A stretch of DNA of 64,000 nt from a bacterium (GTDB taxonomy: Bacteria > Pseudomonadota > Alphaproteobacteria > Rhizobiales > Aestuariivirgaceae). The position numbers were made by a program, and so were the translations under genes. Positions within the stretch are counted from its first letter, which is position 1, and the number at the start of each line of letters is the position of its first letter. The notes under the pieces were generated by a model. It had not been told where the DNA came from. It did no database searches and saw nothing but the letters and a program-made list of their open reading frames with translations. The DNA is taken from contig JALHQC010000013.1 in assembly GCA_022842165.1 (NCBI GenBank), positions 1 through 64,000 on the forward strand. Direction: 5' to 3'. Positions 24,569 through 56,644 of the stretch are shown here, in pieces.

Positions 24569-25687
24569 ATGAGTTTTGCCACCTACGACAGCCTTCCGCA
24601 GCGATTTGCCGCCGAGGCCGGATGGCGTTTGCGCTGCATCCTGCAGGCGGTCATTCAGGGCTTTCGCAGCCACAGCGCGCTCTATACGCTCGCGCTTGGC
24701 ACCTATGCCGCGGGCTTCGTGCAGAGCCTGTGGCTGGGCGTGCCCTTGTCCCTCAGCCTCGTCGGGATGGTCAGCGGCACCACCTTCGTTTGCCTTCTGC
24801 TGATCCTCTATCTCTGGCTGTTCTTGGAGTTCATCCGCGCCTGCTGGACCGGATATGCCACCGGCATGCCCGCGGCCTTCGCGGCGATGAAGCTGCGCGT
24901 ACTCGACAACATCCTGGCGCCGTCGCGCGTCTCCAATACGTTTCATGCCTTCGTGGCCAATGGCGTGTTCTTCGTCGGGTTCATGACCATCAAGAAGAAC
25001 ATTCCCGATGCCGTGCCGTTCCAGTGGGACGAGGCCTTCATGGAACTGGACCGGATTTTGCATTTCGGCGTGCTGCCGCACGAGATCCTCGCACCATTGT
25101 TCAATGTTCCGGCCATTACATTCGGTGTGAACGTCGTCTATAACCTGTGGTTCCTGGTGCTGACCGGCTTCTTCTTCTGGCAGGGGTTCCGGAAAGACGA
25201 CACGCCGCTCCGCCAGCGCTATCTCCTCTCCTATCTGCTGACCTGGGCGGTCGGCACCTGCATTCTTGGAACAATCTTCTCCTCTGCCGGACCCTGTTTC
25301 TATGGCTTCGTCGCCCAGGGAACGAACCCCTATGATGGCCTGATGCGCTACCTGGCGGACGCCAATGCCGTTTACCCGGTCTGGGCGGTGCCGACGCAGG
25401 CAACGCTGTGGCAGAGCCACCTTGCAGGCTTTGGCGACATTGAGGGCGTATCCGCCATGCCATCGATGCACGTGGCGACGACGATCCTCTTCATCCTCTG
25501 CGCCAGGGCTTCGGGCAAACGCTGGCTCCTGCGGCTCTCGGTGCTCTTTGCGGTCCTGATTTTCCTCGGTTCCATCCTGCTGGGCTGGCACTACGCAATC
25601 GATGGTTATGCTGGCGCACTGATCGCGCTGGGTTGCTGGAAGATCATCGGCTGGTGGCAGTCCTCCCGCGGGACGGCGGCAGCATGA
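24569..25687 (+). CDS. PAP2-superfamily membrane phosphatase/phosphotransferase, first copy
   Basis: Polytopic inner-membrane protein of 372 residues of the PAP2 (inositolphosphotransferase/Aur1-like) group. The conserved motifs [11 protein letters not shown] and [12 protein letters not shown] hold the catalytic His residues. N-terminal hydrophobic segments occupy about 40-110, and a block at 170-270 (PFQWDEAFMELDR, then GTCILGTIFSSAGPCFYG) is shared almost word for word with the next gene. It overlaps that gene by an ATGA junction. The lipid or polyprenyl phosphate substrate is unknown. Confidence 0.87.
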   Translation: MSFATYDSLPQRFAAEAGWRLRCILQAVIQGFRSHSALYTLALGTYAAGFVQSLWLGVPLSLSLVGMVSGTTFVCLLLILYLWLFLEFIRACWTGYATGMPAAFAAMKLRVLDNILAPSRVSNTFHAFVANGVFFVGFMTIKKNIPDAVPFQWDEAFMELDRILHFGVLPHEILAPLFNVPAITFGVNVVYNLWFLVLTGFFFWQGFRKDDTPLRQRYLLSYLLTWAVGTCILGTIFSSAGPCFYGFVAQGTNPYDGLMRYLADANAVYPVWAVPTQATLWQSHLAGFGDIEGVSAMPSMHVATTILFILCARASGKRWLLRLSVLFAVLIFLGSILLGWHYAIDGYAGALIALGCWKIIGWWQSSRGTAAA

Positions 25688-50274: not shown

Positions 50275-50342
50275 CCGTCTCGTGCATGTTGCGGATGCCT
50301 TCACAACGAAGCCTGCAAACAGCAGCAACGAGAGGATACATC

Positions 50343-50942
50343 ATGCGCTACTCGACCTCATTCATGGCCCTCCTTCTTGGCCTCGGCATCTATGGCGTTG
50401 CCCCCATCGCCACATCCTTCAACCCCTTCGCGGCCTCCACCGCCCATGCCCAGTCAGCCGATGACGACGGCACGCCGGATCAGGGCGGCGGCAATGACGA
50501 CGATACGCCGGGCTCGGGCGATGACGATGGCACGCCGGACCAGGGCGGCGGCAATGACGATGACACGCCGGGCTCGGGCGATGACGATGGCACACCGGAC
50601 CAGGGCGGCGGCAATGATGATGACACGCCGGGTTCGGGCGATGACGACGGCACCCCGGATCAGGGTGGCGGCAATGACGATGACACCGGAACGGACGACT
50701 CGGACGGCCGCCCCGACAAGGCCGTGAAGGCAGCCGAGAAGGCCGCGAAGAAGGCCGCGCAGGCTGCTGAAAAGGCAGCAAAGAAGGCAGCCCAGACGAC
50801 TGAAAAGGCCGCCAAGGGCCAGTCCAAGGTCAACAAGAAGGCTGCCAAGGATACCGAGAAGGCATCCAAAAAGGCCGCAAAGGACGCTGAGAAGGCGTCC
50901 AAGAAGGAATCGAAGTCTTCGGAAAAGAAGTCTCGCAACTGA
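50343..50942 (+). CDS. Secreted two-part repeat protein: acidic DDDGTPDQ repeats and Lys/Ala-rich tail
   Basis: I do not recognise the family. The protein has 199 residues. A signal peptide ends at about residue 36 (cleavage after AHA). Residues 40-119 are four copies of a 20-residue unit with the core DDDGTPDQGGGNDDDTPGSG (the last diverges to GTDD). Residues about 120-199 are rich in Lys and Ala, with the pattern AAEKAAKKAAQ, resembling histone H1 tails and coiled helices. The two halves carry strong opposite charge. DxDG in each repeat resembles calcium-binding loops. GAGAGG lies upstream of the ATG at 50343; a start at 50286 would spoil the signal peptide. Confidence 0.8.
   Translation: MRYSTSFMALLLGLGIYGVAPIATSFNPFAASTAHAQSADDDGTPDQGGGNDDDTPGSGDDDGTPDQGGGNDDDTPGSGDDDGTPDQGGGNDDDTPGSGDDDGTPDQGGGNDDDTGTDDSDGRPDKAVKAAEKAAKKAAQAAEKAAKKAAQTTEKAAKGQSKVNKKAAKDTEKASKKAAKDAEKASKKESKSSEKKSRN
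50460..50699 (+). repeat. 60-bp tandem DNA repeat, four units, coding
   Basis: Four consecutive 60-base units (from 50460, 50520, 50580 and 50640) encode the acidic repeats of the preceding gene. The first three are nearly identical and differ mainly at third codon positions; the last ends differently. Copy number can change by recombination. Confidence 0.9.
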
Positions 50943-51492: not shown

Positions 51493-52011
51493 TTAGCGGC
51501 GGCGCTTGGGAATAGTTCGGCCTGAGCCTTGCAAGTCTGACGCTTCAAGCGCCTGTTCGACCTTGTCGCCCGTGCGCCCACTCCGGTCGAAATCGCCACG
51601 AATGGCCTTCAGCGCATAGCGTTCCTGATTGATTTCGTCCGCCGTCCGGAAACCCAACCGCCGCAGCACCGGAACTGGTGGACACCAGCCCTGGAGTGCA
51701 TGCTGCAACAGGAATGCCGTGACGACGCCGGAAAGAATCAGCCAGCGCTTGTCGAGCGCCGCCCCCATGACGACACCTGACAGCGCGAGCGTCGCGGCAT
51801 TGGCCTCGATCGCGCGTTCGACGTCCCATTCCCGGTCGAGCTGGTCGAGCCGCGTCGCGATCTGGTTCTTTCTGGCAGCGTAATGGCGGATGCTGTCTTC
51901 GGTCCTGGTCCGGATGCGCCGGTTCACCTTGTCGGCCGTGTGTTCGCGCACGCGCTTCCGTGTCGAAGGCAGGTGGGTAGCAGGCGATGTATTGAGCAAT
52001 GCTTTGGCCAT
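51493..52011 (-). CDS. YgaP-like (DUF2892) membrane protein
   Basis: Protein of 172 residues. The first 60 residues are basic and probably coiled (STRKRVREHTADKVNRRIRTRTEDSIRHYAARKNQIATRLDQLDREWDVERAIEANAATLALSG). Two hydrophobic segments (about 68-85 and 88-105) follow, then CPPVPVLRRLGFRTADEINQERYALKAIRGDF, which is the recognisable tail of the YgaP-type transmembrane family. The rhodanese domain of true YgaP is absent. A perfect EcfG promoter lies immediately upstream, so its transcript would start close to the start codon. Confidence 0.78.
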   Translation of the reverse strand: MAKALLNTSPATHLPSTRKRVREHTADKVNRRIRTRTEDSIRHYAARKNQIATRLDQLDREWDVERAIEANAATLALSGVVMGAALDKRWLILSGVVTAFLLQHALQGWCPPVPVLRRLGFRTADEINQERYALKAIRGDFDRSGRTGDKVEQALEASDLQGSGRTIPKRRR

Positions 52012-52019
52012 GCCCGTTC

Positions 52020-52044
52020 AACGAATAGCGGCAGAAACTGTTCC
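52020..52044 (-). promoter_or_regulatory. EcfG (general stress sigma factor) promoter for the YgaP-like gene
   Basis: On the minus strand GGAAC (52040-52044) and CGTT (52020-52023) are separated by exactly 16 bases, matching the alphaproteobacterial sigma-EcfG consensus GGAAC-N16/17-CGTT. The -10 ends 8 bases before the ATG at 52011, so the transcript would be leaderless or nearly so. Confidence 0.72.
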
Positions 52045-52555: not shown

Positions 52556-52580
52556 GGAACCAACCTCCCCTCCGGACGTT
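52556..52580 (+). promoter_or_regulatory. EcfG (general stress sigma factor) promoter for the kaiC-like/kinase operon
   Basis: GGAAC (52556-52560) and CGTT (52577-52580) are separated by exactly 16 bases, a perfect fit to the EcfG consensus. The -10 lies 33 bases before the kaiC-like ATG at 52614, leaving room for a short leader. Confidence 0.78.
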
Positions 52581-52613
52581 GTACATCGATCCAAAAAAAT
52601 TTGGGCACGGTGA

Positions 52614-54101
52614 ATGTCGCGACGCGTTTTGAGTGATAAGGCCAAGCTTGGGGTGCAAGGCCTGGACGATGTGCTTGTGGGTGGCCTCGCGCGGAGCCAC
52701 CTTTATTTGATCGAGGGCAGTCCCGGCACCGGCAAGACGACGATCGCCCTGCAGTTCCTGCTGGAAGGAGCCGAGCGCGGCGAAACCTGCCTATATGTGA
52801 CATTGTCGGAGACCGAACAGGAACTCCGGCTTTCGGCGAAGTCGCATGGTTGGGATATCAGCACGAAGTTCGAGGTGTTCGAACTGGTGCCACCGGAACT
52901 TCTTCTGGACAGCGAACAGCAACAGACGCTGCTCTACTCGTCCGACCTTGAGTTGGGAGAAACCACGCAGGCGCTCTTCAAGGCCGTCGAGCGGCTGAAG
53001 CCCGACCGGGTGGTCATCGACAGCCTGTCGGAAATCCGCCTTCTGGCCCAGAGTTCGTTGCGCTACCGCCGCCAGATATTGGCGCTGAAGCACTATTTCG
53101 CGCATGACGGCGCCACCGTGCTGATGCTCGATGATCTGACGACGGAGGCGCTGGACAAGACCGTACATTCCGTGGCGCATGGCGTGTTGCGGCTGGAAGA
53201 GTTGGCGCCCACCTATGGCAAGGAGCGGCGCCGCCTCCGCGTCATCAAATATCGCGGCCAGTCTTATCGCGGCGGATACCATGACTTCGCGATTGACCGC
53301 GGCGGCTTGCGGGTGTTCCCGCGCCTGGTTGCAAGCGAACACCGCACCAGCTTCCAGCGCATCACGGTGAGCAGCAACATCAGCCAGCTTGACGATCTGC
53401 TGGGCGGCGGCGTCGAGCGCGGATCGAGCGTTCTCATCCTGGGGCCGGCCGGCACCGGAAAGTCGCTGCTGACCTTGCATTTCGCCCGCGCCGCCGTCGA
53501 ACGCGGCGAGAAGGTGGCGCTGTTCATTTTCGATGAGGAGTTAGGCCTGCTTTTCAACCGCGCCAACAGCATGTCGATCGACCTTGAAAGCATGCGCGAG
53601 TCAGGAAACCTGATCATCGAGCAGGTTGACGCCGCCGAGCTTTCGCCCGGCGAATTTGCGCACCGTGTGAGAGACCGGGTCGACAGCGCCAATGTCAAGA
53701 CGGTGGTGATCGACAGCCTCAACGGCTACCAGTCCGCGATGCCGGAAGAGCATGAGCTGCTGCTTCACGTTCACGAACTGCTGCAGTACCTGAACCGTCA
53801 GGGCGCGACGACATTCCTGACGGTGGCGCAGCACGGGCTGGTGGGTGACATGCGTTCGCCCGTCGACATCACATACCTGGCCGACAGTGTGCTTCTGCTG
53901 CGGTATTTCGAGGCCTTTGGCCGGGTGCGCCGCGCCATTTCGGTGATCAAGAAGCGGGCCAGCCCGCATGAGGATACGATCCGCGAGTATCAGATTGGGG
54001 ACAAGGGCGTGGTGATCGGCGAACCGCTTCAGGAATTTCAGGGCGTATTGCGTGGCGTGCCGACCTATTCGGGCGGCGGCACGTCTCTGCTCGGTGGCTG
54101 A
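52614..54101 (+). CDS. KaiC-like double-domain ATPase
   Basis: RecA-fold protein of 495 residues with two KaiC domains. CI has Walker A GSPGTGKT at 35-42 and the motif VIDSLSEIR; CII has Walker A GPAGTGKS near 277-284 and VIDSLNGYQ. The CII end aligns with KaiC from S. elongatus (LLRYFEAFGRVRRAISVIKKR, IREYQIGDKG), but the phosphosite pair Ser431-Thr432 becomes Thr420-Tyr421 (DITYLAD). The CI catalytic pair EE reads SE (LSETEQE). No kaiA or kaiB gene is in the window. It is followed after 20 bases by a hybrid kinase gene. Confidence 0.9.
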   Translation: MSRRVLSDKAKLGVQGLDDVLVGGLARSHLYLIEGSPGTGKTTIALQFLLEGAERGETCLYVTLSETEQELRLSAKSHGWDISTKFEVFELVPPELLLDSEQQQTLLYSSDLELGETTQALFKAVERLKPDRVVIDSLSEIRLLAQSSLRYRRQILALKHYFAHDGATVLMLDDLTTEALDKTVHSVAHGVLRLEELAPTYGKERRRLRVIKYRGQSYRGGYHDFAIDRGGLRVFPRLVASEHRTSFQRITVSSNISQLDDLLGGGVERGSSVLILGPAGTGKSLLTLHFARAAVERGEKVALFIFDEELGLLFNRANSMSIDLESMRESGNLIIEQVDAAELSPGEFAHRVRDRVDSANVKTVVIDSLNGYQSAMPEEHELLLHVHELLQYLNRQGATTFLTVAQHGLVGDMRSPVDITYLADSVLLLRYFEAFGRVRRAISVIKKRASPHEDTIREYQIGDKGVVIGEPLQEFQGVLRGVPTYSGGGTSLLGG

Positions 54102-54121
54102 AACCGCATGGAAACCTGCTT

Positions 54122-56644
54122 GTGATAAATTCGGAACGGGCCTTGATCCTGGCACCCGATGGGCGCGATGGCGCACTTGCGGCATCGATACTGGAAGGGG
54201 CCGGCAAGACAGCCAGGGTATGCGCCACGCTGCCTGAACTTCTGAAGAGGATTCAGGAAGGCGCCGGGGTTGCCGTGCTGACGACGGAGGCCCTGCAATA
54301 TGCCGATCTGACGCCTGTGGCATCGTGGATCGAGCGCCAGCCGCCATGGTCCGACTTTCCGTTCGTGATTCTGGCGCGCCGCGACAACTCGCCGGACCAG
54401 AATCCGCAGCTGGCAGGCATTAAGTCGCTTCTCGGCAACGTCATGGTGCTCGACCGCCCGTTTCACCCTACTGCCTTTCTCAACGTGGTCGAGAATGCCT
54501 TGCGGGCAAGACGGCGGCAGTATGAAGCCCGCCGCTACCTGACCGAGATCAGCGAGGGCGAATCACGCCTGCGGTTCCTCGATGCGCTCGGACGCGAAAC
54601 GGCGGCCAATTCGGATGCCGACGGCATTCTCGCGATCACCACGCGCATGCTCGGGCGCTATCTGGATGTGGCGATCTGCGCCTATGCCGACATGGAGCCC
54701 AACGAAGATTATTTCACAATCCGCGGAGACTGGAGCCGCGAAGGCATGGCCAGCATCGTGGGCTACTACAGACTTGCCGATTTCGGGAGGCTCGCCGTGC
54801 GCAATCTGCGCGCCGGGCTGCCGCTCGTCCTGAACGACATCGCCTCCGAACTGCCGCAGGACGAAGCAGCAGCCTTTGAGAAAATCGGTGTTTCCGCCAC
54901 GGTATGCATGCCGCTGGTGAAGGAAGGCAGGCTCACCGCACTGATGGCCCTGCACGAAAGCGCGCCGCGCGTGTGGACGGCATCCGAACTCGCGCTGCTG
55001 ACGGAGGTGACCCAGCGCTCATGGGCGCATATCGAAAGGGTACGTTCGCTGGCGATGGCGCGCGAAGGCGAGAAGCTGTTTCGCGCCGATCTCGAAACCA
55101 AGGTTGCCGAGCGCACGCAAGCGCTCGAGCGCAGCGAAAAAAGCATCCGCGCCATCATCGAGAGCTCACACCTCTATGCCGGCCTCCTGACGGTGGATGG
55201 CGTCCTGCAATATGCCAATGCCACGTCACTCGCCGCCATCCTCGTCGGCCAGGAGGACATCGTGGGCATGCCCTTCTGGGAAACCCCGTGGTTTACCGGC
55301 ACGCCCCGGATGACGGACATCGTGAAGGACGCAGTTTCACGCGTGGCAAAAGGCGAGACCGTCGCGATGGACATGACGCTGAACCTGCCGACGGGAACCA
55401 GGCGCTACGATTTTTCGATGCGCCCGGTCAAGAACAGTGCGGGCGAAGTGGTGGCGATCGTGCCGGAGGCGATCGAGACGACGGCGCGCTACAAGGTCGA
55501 ACAGGCACTGCAGCAGGCCCAGAAGATGGAGGCGATCGGCAACCTGACGGGCGGCATCGCGCATGACTTCAACAACCTGCTGATGGCGGTTCTCGGCAGT
55601 CTCGAACTCTTGCGCAAGCGGTTGCCCGACGACCCGGTGCTGTACCGCCTGCTCGACAACGCGGTCGAGGGCGCGCGGCGCGGAAGCTCGCTCACCGACC
55701 GGATGCTGGCCTTCGCACGGCGGCAGGATCTGAAGCCCGAGCACATCGAGCTGCCGCAGCTGGTGAAGGGCATGATGGAGCTGTTGCAGCGTTCGCTGGG
55801 GCCGACCATCACCATTGATACCGAACTCCCCCCGCGCCTGCCGGCGGTCCAAACCGATGCCAACCAGCTTGAATCCGCCCTGCTCAATCTGGCCGTGAAT
55901 GCGCGCGACGCCATGCATGGCGAAGGACGGATCGTCATTTCCGGGCAGGAAGCGACAATCGGCGAAGGCCATCCCCGCCTGGCGCCGGGGCGCTATGTGG
56001 CACTGTGCCTGAGCGACAGCGGCGAAGGCATGGACGAGGAAACGCTGAGCAAGGCGACCGACCCCTTCTTCACCACCAAGGGCGTGGGCAAGGGAACGGG
56101 CCTCGGCCTGTCGATGGTGCACGGCCTGGCGGAGCAGTCCGGCGGTACGCTGATCCTGAGGAGCGTACTTGGAAAGGGCACCACGGCGGAAATCTGGCTT
56201 CCGGCTTCGAAGGAGGCAGAAGGTGGGGGCGCTGCGGCGGCCACGGACCGTCTATTGCCCGGTCCGCAGGATGAAGAGCACCGGAAGCTCGTGATCCTCG
56301 CAGTGGACGATGATGCGCTGGTGCTGATGAACACCGTCGCCATGCTGGAAGATCTGGGCCACGAGGTGAAAGCGGCGAATTCCGGCAAGCTCGCGCTGGA
56401 ACTGGCCGCGAAGCACACGCCCGACCTGGTGATCACCGACCAGGCCATGCCGCACATGACCGGCTCGCAATTGTCGATCGAGTTGCGGCGCTTGAAACCC
56501 GATCTCCCCATCGTCCTGGCGACTGGCTACGCAGAACTGCCACCCGGCATGGACCTTGGGCTGCCAAGGCTTTCGAAGCCGTTTTCGCAGTCCGACCTGG
56601 AAAGGATCGTCATCCGGGCGACGCAGTCGGGGCAGGCTGCGTGA
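54122..56644 (+). CDS. Hybrid histidine kinase with GAF and PAS sensor domains and a receiver
   Basis: Protein of 840 residues. An N-terminal receiver-like domain (about 1-130) has ILAP and the ending VMVLDRPF but lacks an evident acidic pocket. A GAF-like domain (about 145-310) and a PAS domain (about 340-450, SSHLYAGLLTVDGVLQYANATSLA) follow. The HisKA box GGIAHDFNNLL has His481; the HATPase has NAVNARDA-like NLAVNARDAM, DSGEGM and GTGLGLSMV. The C-terminal receiver (about 735-840) has DDD and the phospho-Asp773 (VITDQAMPHMTG). The start is GTG at 54122. It probably works with the KaiC-like ATPase. Confidence 0.88.
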   Translation: MINSERALILAPDGRDGALAASILEGAGKTARVCATLPELLKRIQEGAGVAVLTTEALQYADLTPVASWIERQPPWSDFPFVILARRDNSPDQNPQLAGIKSLLGNVMVLDRPFHPTAFLNVVENALRARRRQYEARRYLTEISEGESRLRFLDALGRETAANSDADGILAITTRMLGRYLDVAICAYADMEPNEDYFTIRGDWSREGMASIVGYYRLADFGRLAVRNLRAGLPLVLNDIASELPQDEAAAFEKIGVSATVCMPLVKEGRLTALMALHESAPRVWTASELALLTEVTQRSWAHIERVRSLAMAREGEKLFRADLETKVAERTQALERSEKSIRAIIESSHLYAGLLTVDGVLQYANATSLAAILVGQEDIVGMPFWETPWFTGTPRMTDIVKDAVSRVAKGETVAMDMTLNLPTGTRRYDFSMRPVKNSAGEVVAIVPEAIETTARYKVEQALQQAQKMEAIGNLTGGIAHDFNNLLMAVLGSLELLRKRLPDDPVLYRLLDNAVEGARRGSSLTDRMLAFARRQDLKPEHIELPQLVKGMMELLQRSLGPTITIDTELPPRLPAVQTDANQLESALLNLAVNARDAMHGEGRIVISGQEATIGEGHPRLAPGRYVALCLSDSGEGMDEETLSKATDPFFTTKGVGKGTGLGLSMVHGLAEQSGGTLILRSVLGKGTTAEIWLPASKEAEGGGAAAATDRLLPGPQDEEHRKLVILAVDDDALVLMNTVAMLEDLGHEVKAANSGKLALELAAKHTPDLVITDQAMPHMTGSQLSIELRRLKPDLPIVLATGYAELPPGMDLGLPRLSKPFSQSDLERIVIRATQSGQAA

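Follow-up and report, generated by a model that had tools for sequence, protein, structure and literature searches.

A KaiB-free kaiC and histidine kinase gene pair with a putative EcfG promoter in an alphaproteobacterium

We analysed a stretch of 64,000 nucleotides from an alphaproteobacterium of the family Aestuariivirgaceae (positions 1 to 64,000 of contig JALHQC010000013.1, assembly GCA_022842165.1; hereafter the window), in which a kaiC gene is directly followed by a gene for a hybrid histidine kinase. We propose that the two genes form a KaiB-independent KaiC signalling cassette, which would be driven by the alternative sigma factor EcfG and in which a predicted pseudo-receiver at the N-terminus of the kinase would read the state of KaiC and gate the kinase. 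We put the probability of this reading at roughly 60%.

Results

The gene pair and the predicted pseudo-receiver

The kaiC gene (52614-54101, + strand) encodes a protein of 495 residues with two KaiC domains (PF06745, E 8.7e-76). It is followed after 20 bases, on the same strand, by the kinase gene (54122-56644, +), which starts with GTG and encodes a protein of 840 residues, whose Pfam domains are given below and which we place in the group Nt_HK. Since the gene after the kinase is convergent, the kaiC operon consists of two genes. An exact match to the EcfG-type motif GGAAC-N16-CGTT (52556-52580, +), which we regard as a promoter candidate, lies 33 bases ahead of the kaiC start codon ATG. 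The original prediction, which was made from the letters of the window alone, had named the double-domain KaiC, the 840-residue kinase after 20 bases and the perfect motif in front of them, all of which we could confirm.

Within the kinase, Pfam assigned a GAF domain to residues 165-299 (54614-55018, +; PF01590, E 1.2e-10), a PAS domain to residues 348-457 (55163-55492, +; PF08448, E 1.7e-10), HisKA and HATPase domains to residues 473-535 and 579-696 (55538-56209, +; PF00512 and PF02518) and a receiver domain to residues 725-828 (56294-56605, +; PF00072, E 1.8e-18), leaving residues 1-140 without a match. The phospho-acceptor H481, N593 and the G-box residues of the kinase core are nearly invariant, as are D730, D773 and K819 of the C-terminal receiver, which is canonical (D730/D731, D773, K819). 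For the N-terminal domain (54122-54541, +), AlphaFold2 on 32 aligned sequences returned a model with an alternating beta-alpha order (predicted local distance difference test, pLDDT, 89.5; predicted template modelling score, pTM, 0.86), and a Foldseek search with this model retrieved receivers, among them NtrX, FixJ and PhoB (best E 8.5e-6). The domain order that had been read from the translation, including a receiver-like N-terminus, is thus in line with Pfam, the model and the Foldseek matches.

P12, G14, R15, D16, Q73, W76, S77, D78, N106, R112, P113 and A126 are invariant in the 32 sequences of the N-terminal domain. A receiver's catalytic set is lost, with strand 1 ending in A11-P12 in place of the expected acid pair, T55 aligned with the FixJ aspartate and R112 standing in for the expected lysine. 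A pseudo-receiver is defined by a receiver fold in which one or more of the five catalytic residues are missing (PMC12632262). The predicted model has this fold and lacks catalytic residues, and we therefore predict that the N-terminal domain of the kinase is a pseudo-receiver. A SasA/KaiB-like fold, which had been proposed for such domains in 2011, was rejected, since the 50 Foldseek matches listed of 1246 are receivers, response regulators and the chains of one fusion entry; judged by title, no SasA, KaiB, KaiA or CikA pseudo-receiver is among these 50.

Linkage of the N-terminal domain to KaiC

Scanning genomes with an alignment of three KaiC sequences, we obtained at least 517 relatives, the best 80 of which were kept and, together with two loci from the relatives search (L036 and L037), gave 82 loci. 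A match of 80-140 residues to the N-terminal domain was located directly behind kaiC in all of them; in four loci the mechanically called reading frame starts inside kaiC and the match begins 14-18 bases after the end of kaiC. A specific histidine kinase gene with a conserved N-terminal domain directly downstream, the hallmark of the kaiC-Nt_HK group, was accordingly found in the window and at 82/82 loci, with the pair of Ramlibacter tataouinensis, to which we return below, being compared by description alone.

To avoid a selection for KaiC, we also searched 289 genomes drawn from across the class with the profile of the N-terminal domain alone. This search returned 32 places in 28 genomes. 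Of these, 19 (in 18 genomes) were strong, with E <1e-20, and the other 13 were weak, with E between 3.6e-6 and 7.5e-4. Immediately upstream of all 19 strong places (18 besides the window) we found kaiC, which was near none of the 11 weak places checked, up to 1.5 kb a side. The reverse search with KaiC (E up to 1e-60) gave 21 places in 19 genomes, comprising 18 full-length KaiCs, each followed by the domain, two fragments on two contigs of one genome, one fragment preceding the domain, and G075. Full-length KaiCs scoring above 570 bits all had the domain, and G075, the sole one below (363 bits, 33% identical), was without it. Five plasmid records were opened of 153 with a match, spanning domain E values of 1e-22 to 4e-6, with Agrobacterium fabrum C58 in addition, and all five carry a KaiC of 43-72% identity directly upstream.

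The distances between N-terminal domains correlated with those between KaiCs with a rho of 0.59, and with those between the respective kinase cores with a rho of 0.27 (95% interval of the difference 0.17 to 0.47; 69 loci with all parts, L037 omitted; with L037 included, the values are 0.62 and 0.29). The sensor and kinase domains behind it vary. The GAF stretch of the window was matched in only one of the 82 partner proteins (L118) and the PAS stretch in none (E 1e-3), with other PAS domains occurring in several, from which we conclude that the sensor domains are shuffled, too. The kinase core was matched in 74 of the 82 partners. In seven of the eight others, the N-terminal domain is fused to an HWE kinase, and the eighth (L082, Microvirga guangxiensis) is short, ends after a PAS domain without a kinase and is possibly a broken copy. 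The window kinase itself has a HisKA and no HWE_HK domain; its best NCBIfam matches, all below cut-off, include CckA. As judged from these domain compositions, the kinase behind the N-terminal domain is exchangeable (HisKA or HWE). Because the domain tracks KaiC above its own kinase core and because kinases and sensors are exchanged, it is most likely a module that reads KaiC, presumably by binding it, and passes the signal to exchangeable kinases.

The genes around the pair vary as well. No recognisable common flanking genes were found around 80 loci, up to 6 kb a side; when the proteins of ten window neighbours were compared with these loci (E 1e-6), eight matched nothing, and the remaining two, members of large families, matched 6 and 7 loci with 24-34% identity among the matches listed. 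The pair has the appearance of a mobile cassette of two genes.

KaiC and the kinase could also be merely co-transcribed stress genes, with the kinase sensing through its GAF and PAS domains and KaiC having a separate task, such as that of a RecA/RadA-like ATPase in stress survival. The GAF and PAS domains are inputs of the kinase's own, and KaiC does have RadA and RecA matches, both of them sub-threshold. However, the linkage of the N-terminal domain to KaiC survives the swap of both the kinase and the flanking genes, and the divergence of the domain tracks KaiC rather than the kinase core to which it is fused, so that we regard this explanation as unlikely.

A second alternative places the pair among the inputs of the general stress response, with a KaiC-controlled kinase feeding PhyR and forming a feedback loop with the EcfG promoter. 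HWE kinases are stated to coordinate the general stress response in Alphaproteobacteria (PMC12148442), seven of the partners belong to this class, and NepR matches were found in 16 of 20 pair-carrying genomes searched, 15 of them over cut-off. On the other hand, the window kinase is a HisKA hybrid with sub-cut-off matches including CckA and is not an HWE kinase, and four of the 20 genomes (two of them 82-85% complete) are without a NepR match; such a loop appears improbable to us.

Promoter and general stress response

The genome that harbours the window encodes PhyR (351.6 bits, NCBIfam cut-off 240), NepR (over the Pfam cut-off and under that of NCBIfam, 23.7 vs 100) and an extracytoplasmic function (ECF) sigma factor of subfamily NF009199 (255.9 vs a cut-off of 219), which we take as EcfG because its gene adjoins nepR. 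The motif GGAAC-N16-CGTT is located just upstream of phyR, and a stretch of 10 kb there contains four sites, compared with 0.40 expected. On the same contig (C15, 39178-65217), ten GGAAC-N16/17-CGTT sites fall into about 26 kb around nepR, the sigma factor gene and phyR, which suggests a stress-gene cluster.

Counting motifs was dropped as proof of a promoter, since the counts are at chance level both in the window (N15-18, 3 observed vs 1.81 expected) and in the genome; the site in front of kaiC gains its weight from position and conservation. At 8 of 83 loci, the motif (N16-18) is present in the 330 bases upstream of kaiC, compared with a simulated mean of 0.36 (maximum 2 in 100 sets) and with 2/83 on the reverse strand, where the loci are related and the counts thus non-independent, and where the simulated backgrounds, here and below, are first-order Markov sequences and not exact shuffles. 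These eight loci are the window, its five nearest relatives (L043-L047; three named Devosia species, one Devosia metagenome-assembled genome and one unclassified alphaproteobacterial metagenome-assembled genome) and two others (L112 and L117). The motif is hence kept in front of the orthologues in 6/6 members of the nearest group, and the spacer sequences differ.

Over the full set of loci, GGAAC occurs in the last 150 bases before kaiC at 33/83 (simulated mean 13.5, maximum 22 of 300) and its reverse complement at 16/83. GTT follows at offset 17 or 18 after 13 of 38 GGAAC sites and at each of the offsets 11-16 and 19-22 at most once. The relaxed pattern GGAAC-N18-19-TT was found at 18/83 loci, including Bradyrhizobium loci, against 2.34 in the simulations; we consider this enrichment as suggestive, with the loci being non-independent (L062 and L080 share the same site).

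Since the five nearest relatives keep the motif with other spacers and since the phyR gene of the same genome has it as well, the site in front of kaiC is, by sequence conservation, very likely a real EcfG promoter in this Devosia-type clade. The stress-sigma promoter that had been predicted is therefore backed by phylogenetic footprinting (6/6 in the nearest group, 8/83 overall). A coincidental GGAAC-N16-CGTT, with the operon transcribed from a different promoter, would agree with motif counts that do not exceed chance in window and genome, but is hard to reconcile with a motif present, with unrelated spacers, in the entire nearest group, and we hold it for quite improbable. Among the open-licence papers of PubMed Central that were searched, none contains both "KaiC" and "EcfG", and six contain "KaiC" along with "general stress response" and "sigma factor", PMC8069551 being one of them.

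The window contains two further GGAAC-N16-CGTT sites. One (52020-52044, -) is located just in front of an open reading frame on the same strand (51493-52011, -), which encodes a small protein with a sub-threshold YgaP-like transmembrane match and may be a further stress gene next to the kaiC operon. The other (25130-25154, -) lies inside an open reading frame of 372 codons on the opposite strand and is probably a chance match. Further upstream of the operon, an open reading frame (50286-50942, +) without a Pfam match encodes tandem Asp/Gly-rich repeats followed by a Lys/Ala-rich tail.

KaiC, KaiB and the distribution of the pair

Alignments to solved KaiC chains and of 83 relatives assigned to the window KaiC, in its two ATPase domains, the Walker A lysines K41 and K283, the catalytic-type glutamates E66 and E308 and the phosphosite pair T420-Y421 (codons 53871-53876, +), which aligns with S431-T432 of Synechococcus KaiC. 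The roles of Walker A, catalytic glutamate and phosphosite residues are those established for cyanobacterial KaiC and are putative for the window protein. K41, K283, E66, E308 and Y421 are invariant in the 83 aligned KaiCs, and position 420 is a threonine in 82 and a serine in one. T420-Y421 corresponds to the SY/TY/SF phosphosites of the kaiC-Nt_HK group as delimited in 2011. The scores for the circadian KaiC equivalogs remain under the cut-offs (NF006799, 280.1 vs 408; TIGR02655, 180.5 vs 546.25), and the protein is a KaiC homologue and not a clock equivalog.

No KaiB match was found in the whole genome (99.27% complete, 117 contigs) in a search with a positive Synechococcus control, in which KaiA was not searched for. 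The earlier statement that no kaiB gene is nearby consequently holds for the entire assembly, and the KaiB that belongs to a Kai circadian oscillator is missing from this genome as well as from 17 of the 20 pair-carrying genomes searched. A genuine KaiC oscillator that sustains itself and needs neither KaiA nor KaiB, for which the conservation of catalytic residues and a pair of residues open to phosphorylation (T420-Y421) could speak, is highly improbable, given that no KaiB was found in the genome and that an hourglass was proposed for the group by the authors of 2011 (PMC3164672).

Conservation of the pair in relatives, named in the original prediction as a check, was found at a distance and not within the genus. 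None of 36 other genomes of the same genus (66-100% complete) shows a kaiC of this kind, their best full-length KaiC being 31% identical, whereas among other Alphaproteobacteria the pair is widespread, and some Beta- and Gammaproteobacteria have it, too. The pair was therefore probably acquired by this genome. The GC content at third codon positions (0.782 for kaiC and 0.790 for the kinase gene) compares with 0.786-0.867 in five neighbours and gives no clear sign of a recent transfer. A phage cassette was considered as well and showed no sign of itself, with viral contigs giving two partial matches of 22% identity alone. Four plasmid copies of the pair (L206, L211, L213 and L214) are located near genes for Hsp20, PRC-barrel, general stress and cold-shock proteins, and also near genes for J-domain proteins, manganese catalase and BON-domain proteins.

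Discussion

From gene order, domains, conserved residues, the conservation of the promoter in one clade and the linkage of the N-terminal domain to KaiC, all of which were taken from the sequence, we infer promoter activity, docking, signal direction, output and timing in the following way. Stress would activate PhyR, upon which EcfG would be released and would transcribe kaiC and the kinase gene together from the GGAAC-N16-CGTT promoter. KaiC would form an ATP-driven ring and phosphorylate itself at T420 and perhaps at Y421. The N-terminal pseudo-receiver of the kinase would dock on KaiC and read its state, and this docking would act, together with the inputs from the GAF and PAS domains of the kinase, as a gate for the HisKA core, with phosphate being passed on to the C-terminal receiver and from there to a further regulator. 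The set may act as a stress-induced timer or memory, that is, as an hourglass and not as a clock. The original prediction had suggested that KaiC is used as a stress or time-of-day input to a phosphorelay rather than in the classical oscillator; with a KaiB-independent KaiC-kinase pair kept at all 82 loci and KaiB absent from most of the genomes searched, this interpretation is partly supported.

Several observations weigh against our reading. The profile of the N-terminal domain was built from copies adjacent to KaiC and favours such copies, and scoring was limited to 14 candidates per genome with this profile and to five per genome in the KaiC search. KaiC correlates better with the domain (0.59) than with the kinase core (0.48) only within error (interval -0.06 to 0.29), and the seven HWE partners are confined to two genera (six in Microvirga, one in Methylobacterium). 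Three of the 20 pair-carrying genomes also have KaiB, on other contigs. Concerning the promoter, the motif (N16-17) has 83 matches genome-wide as opposed to 109 for a reversed control pattern, GTT also follows GGAAC at the offsets 9, 10 and 27 (three, three and five times, respectively), and 75 of the 83 loci are without the motif within 330 bases of kaiC. From the latter we conclude that EcfG control would be limited to the Devosia-type group and a few others and would not extend to the whole family.

The proposed cassette may be part of a more general scheme, which we put forward tentatively and at somewhat less than even odds, in which a mobile, KaiB-free KaiC reader, a pseudo-receiver found solely beside this subfamily of KaiC, would feed any kinase fused to it, including HWE kinases, and would have become an EcfG-driven, stress-charged hourglass in the Devosia-type clade.

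A pair of this kind has been known from Ramlibacter tataouinensis since 2011, from a paper by De Luca and co-workers. There, Rta_04330 (KaiC) and Rta_04340 (Nt_HK) form the "second kaiC-context", a kaiC gene and a specific Nt_HK kinase gene without kaiB, which were shown to be co-transcribed by reverse transcription PCR and for which the N-terminal domain was proposed to bind KaiC (PLoS One 2011, PMC3164672). The window resembles this system in the order of kaiC and a specific kinase with a conserved N-terminal domain, in the missing kaiB and in the TY/SY/SF phosphosites. It differs in that no stress promoter is described in the portions of that paper drawn on here, and in that the N-terminal domain was likened there to SasA/KaiB and only weakly to a receiver, whereas we predict a pseudo-receiver (PMC3164672).

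In Methylobacterium (Methylorubrum) extorquens AM1, kaiC2-kaiR2 acts in temperature-dependent ultraviolet resistance (PMC8069551, describing Iguchi et al. 2018). Here, too, kaiC adjoins one regulator gene in a cluster without kaiB; unlike in the window, the phosphosite of KaiC2 is S426, and that genome also has kaiB genes (PMC8069551). The AM1 sequence is not among the matches listed, and KaiC2 is a related precedent whose membership in the subfamily of the window KaiC is hypothetical; that the window KaiC is KaiC2 was rejected, two Methylobacterium relatives (L096 and L108) having threonine and not serine at the site. The cyanobacterial KaiABC/SasA/CikA system shares with the window a KaiC core and kinases tied to Kai proteins, and CikA and KaiA carry pseudo-receivers; in contrast to cyanobacteria, KaiB is missing here and the predicted pseudo-receiver is N-terminal and linked to KaiC, whereas that of CikA binds KaiB (PMC12632262). 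Rhodobacter sphaeroides, likewise an alphaproteobacterium, has a kinase in its kai operon, which, as far as its description allows a comparison, differs by containing kaiB (PMC5520375).

The gene pair, the missing kaiB and the proposal that the N-terminal domain binds KaiC are thus already described (PMC3164672). New, as far as the literature seen goes, are the putative stress-sigma control in one group, the assignment of a pseudo-receiver, the close linkage to KaiC and the exchange of kinases including those of the HWE type.

What KaiC does outside cyanobacteria in the absence of KaiA and KaiB is a question for which this locus offers a minimal two-protein system. With residues 1-140 as candidate docking site, the phosphosite T420-Y421, the promoter candidate and exchangeable kinase modules as handles, the question should therefore become approachable in vitro with two purified proteins. 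Beyond this, our results suggest a connection of KaiC with the general stress response of Alphaproteobacteria.

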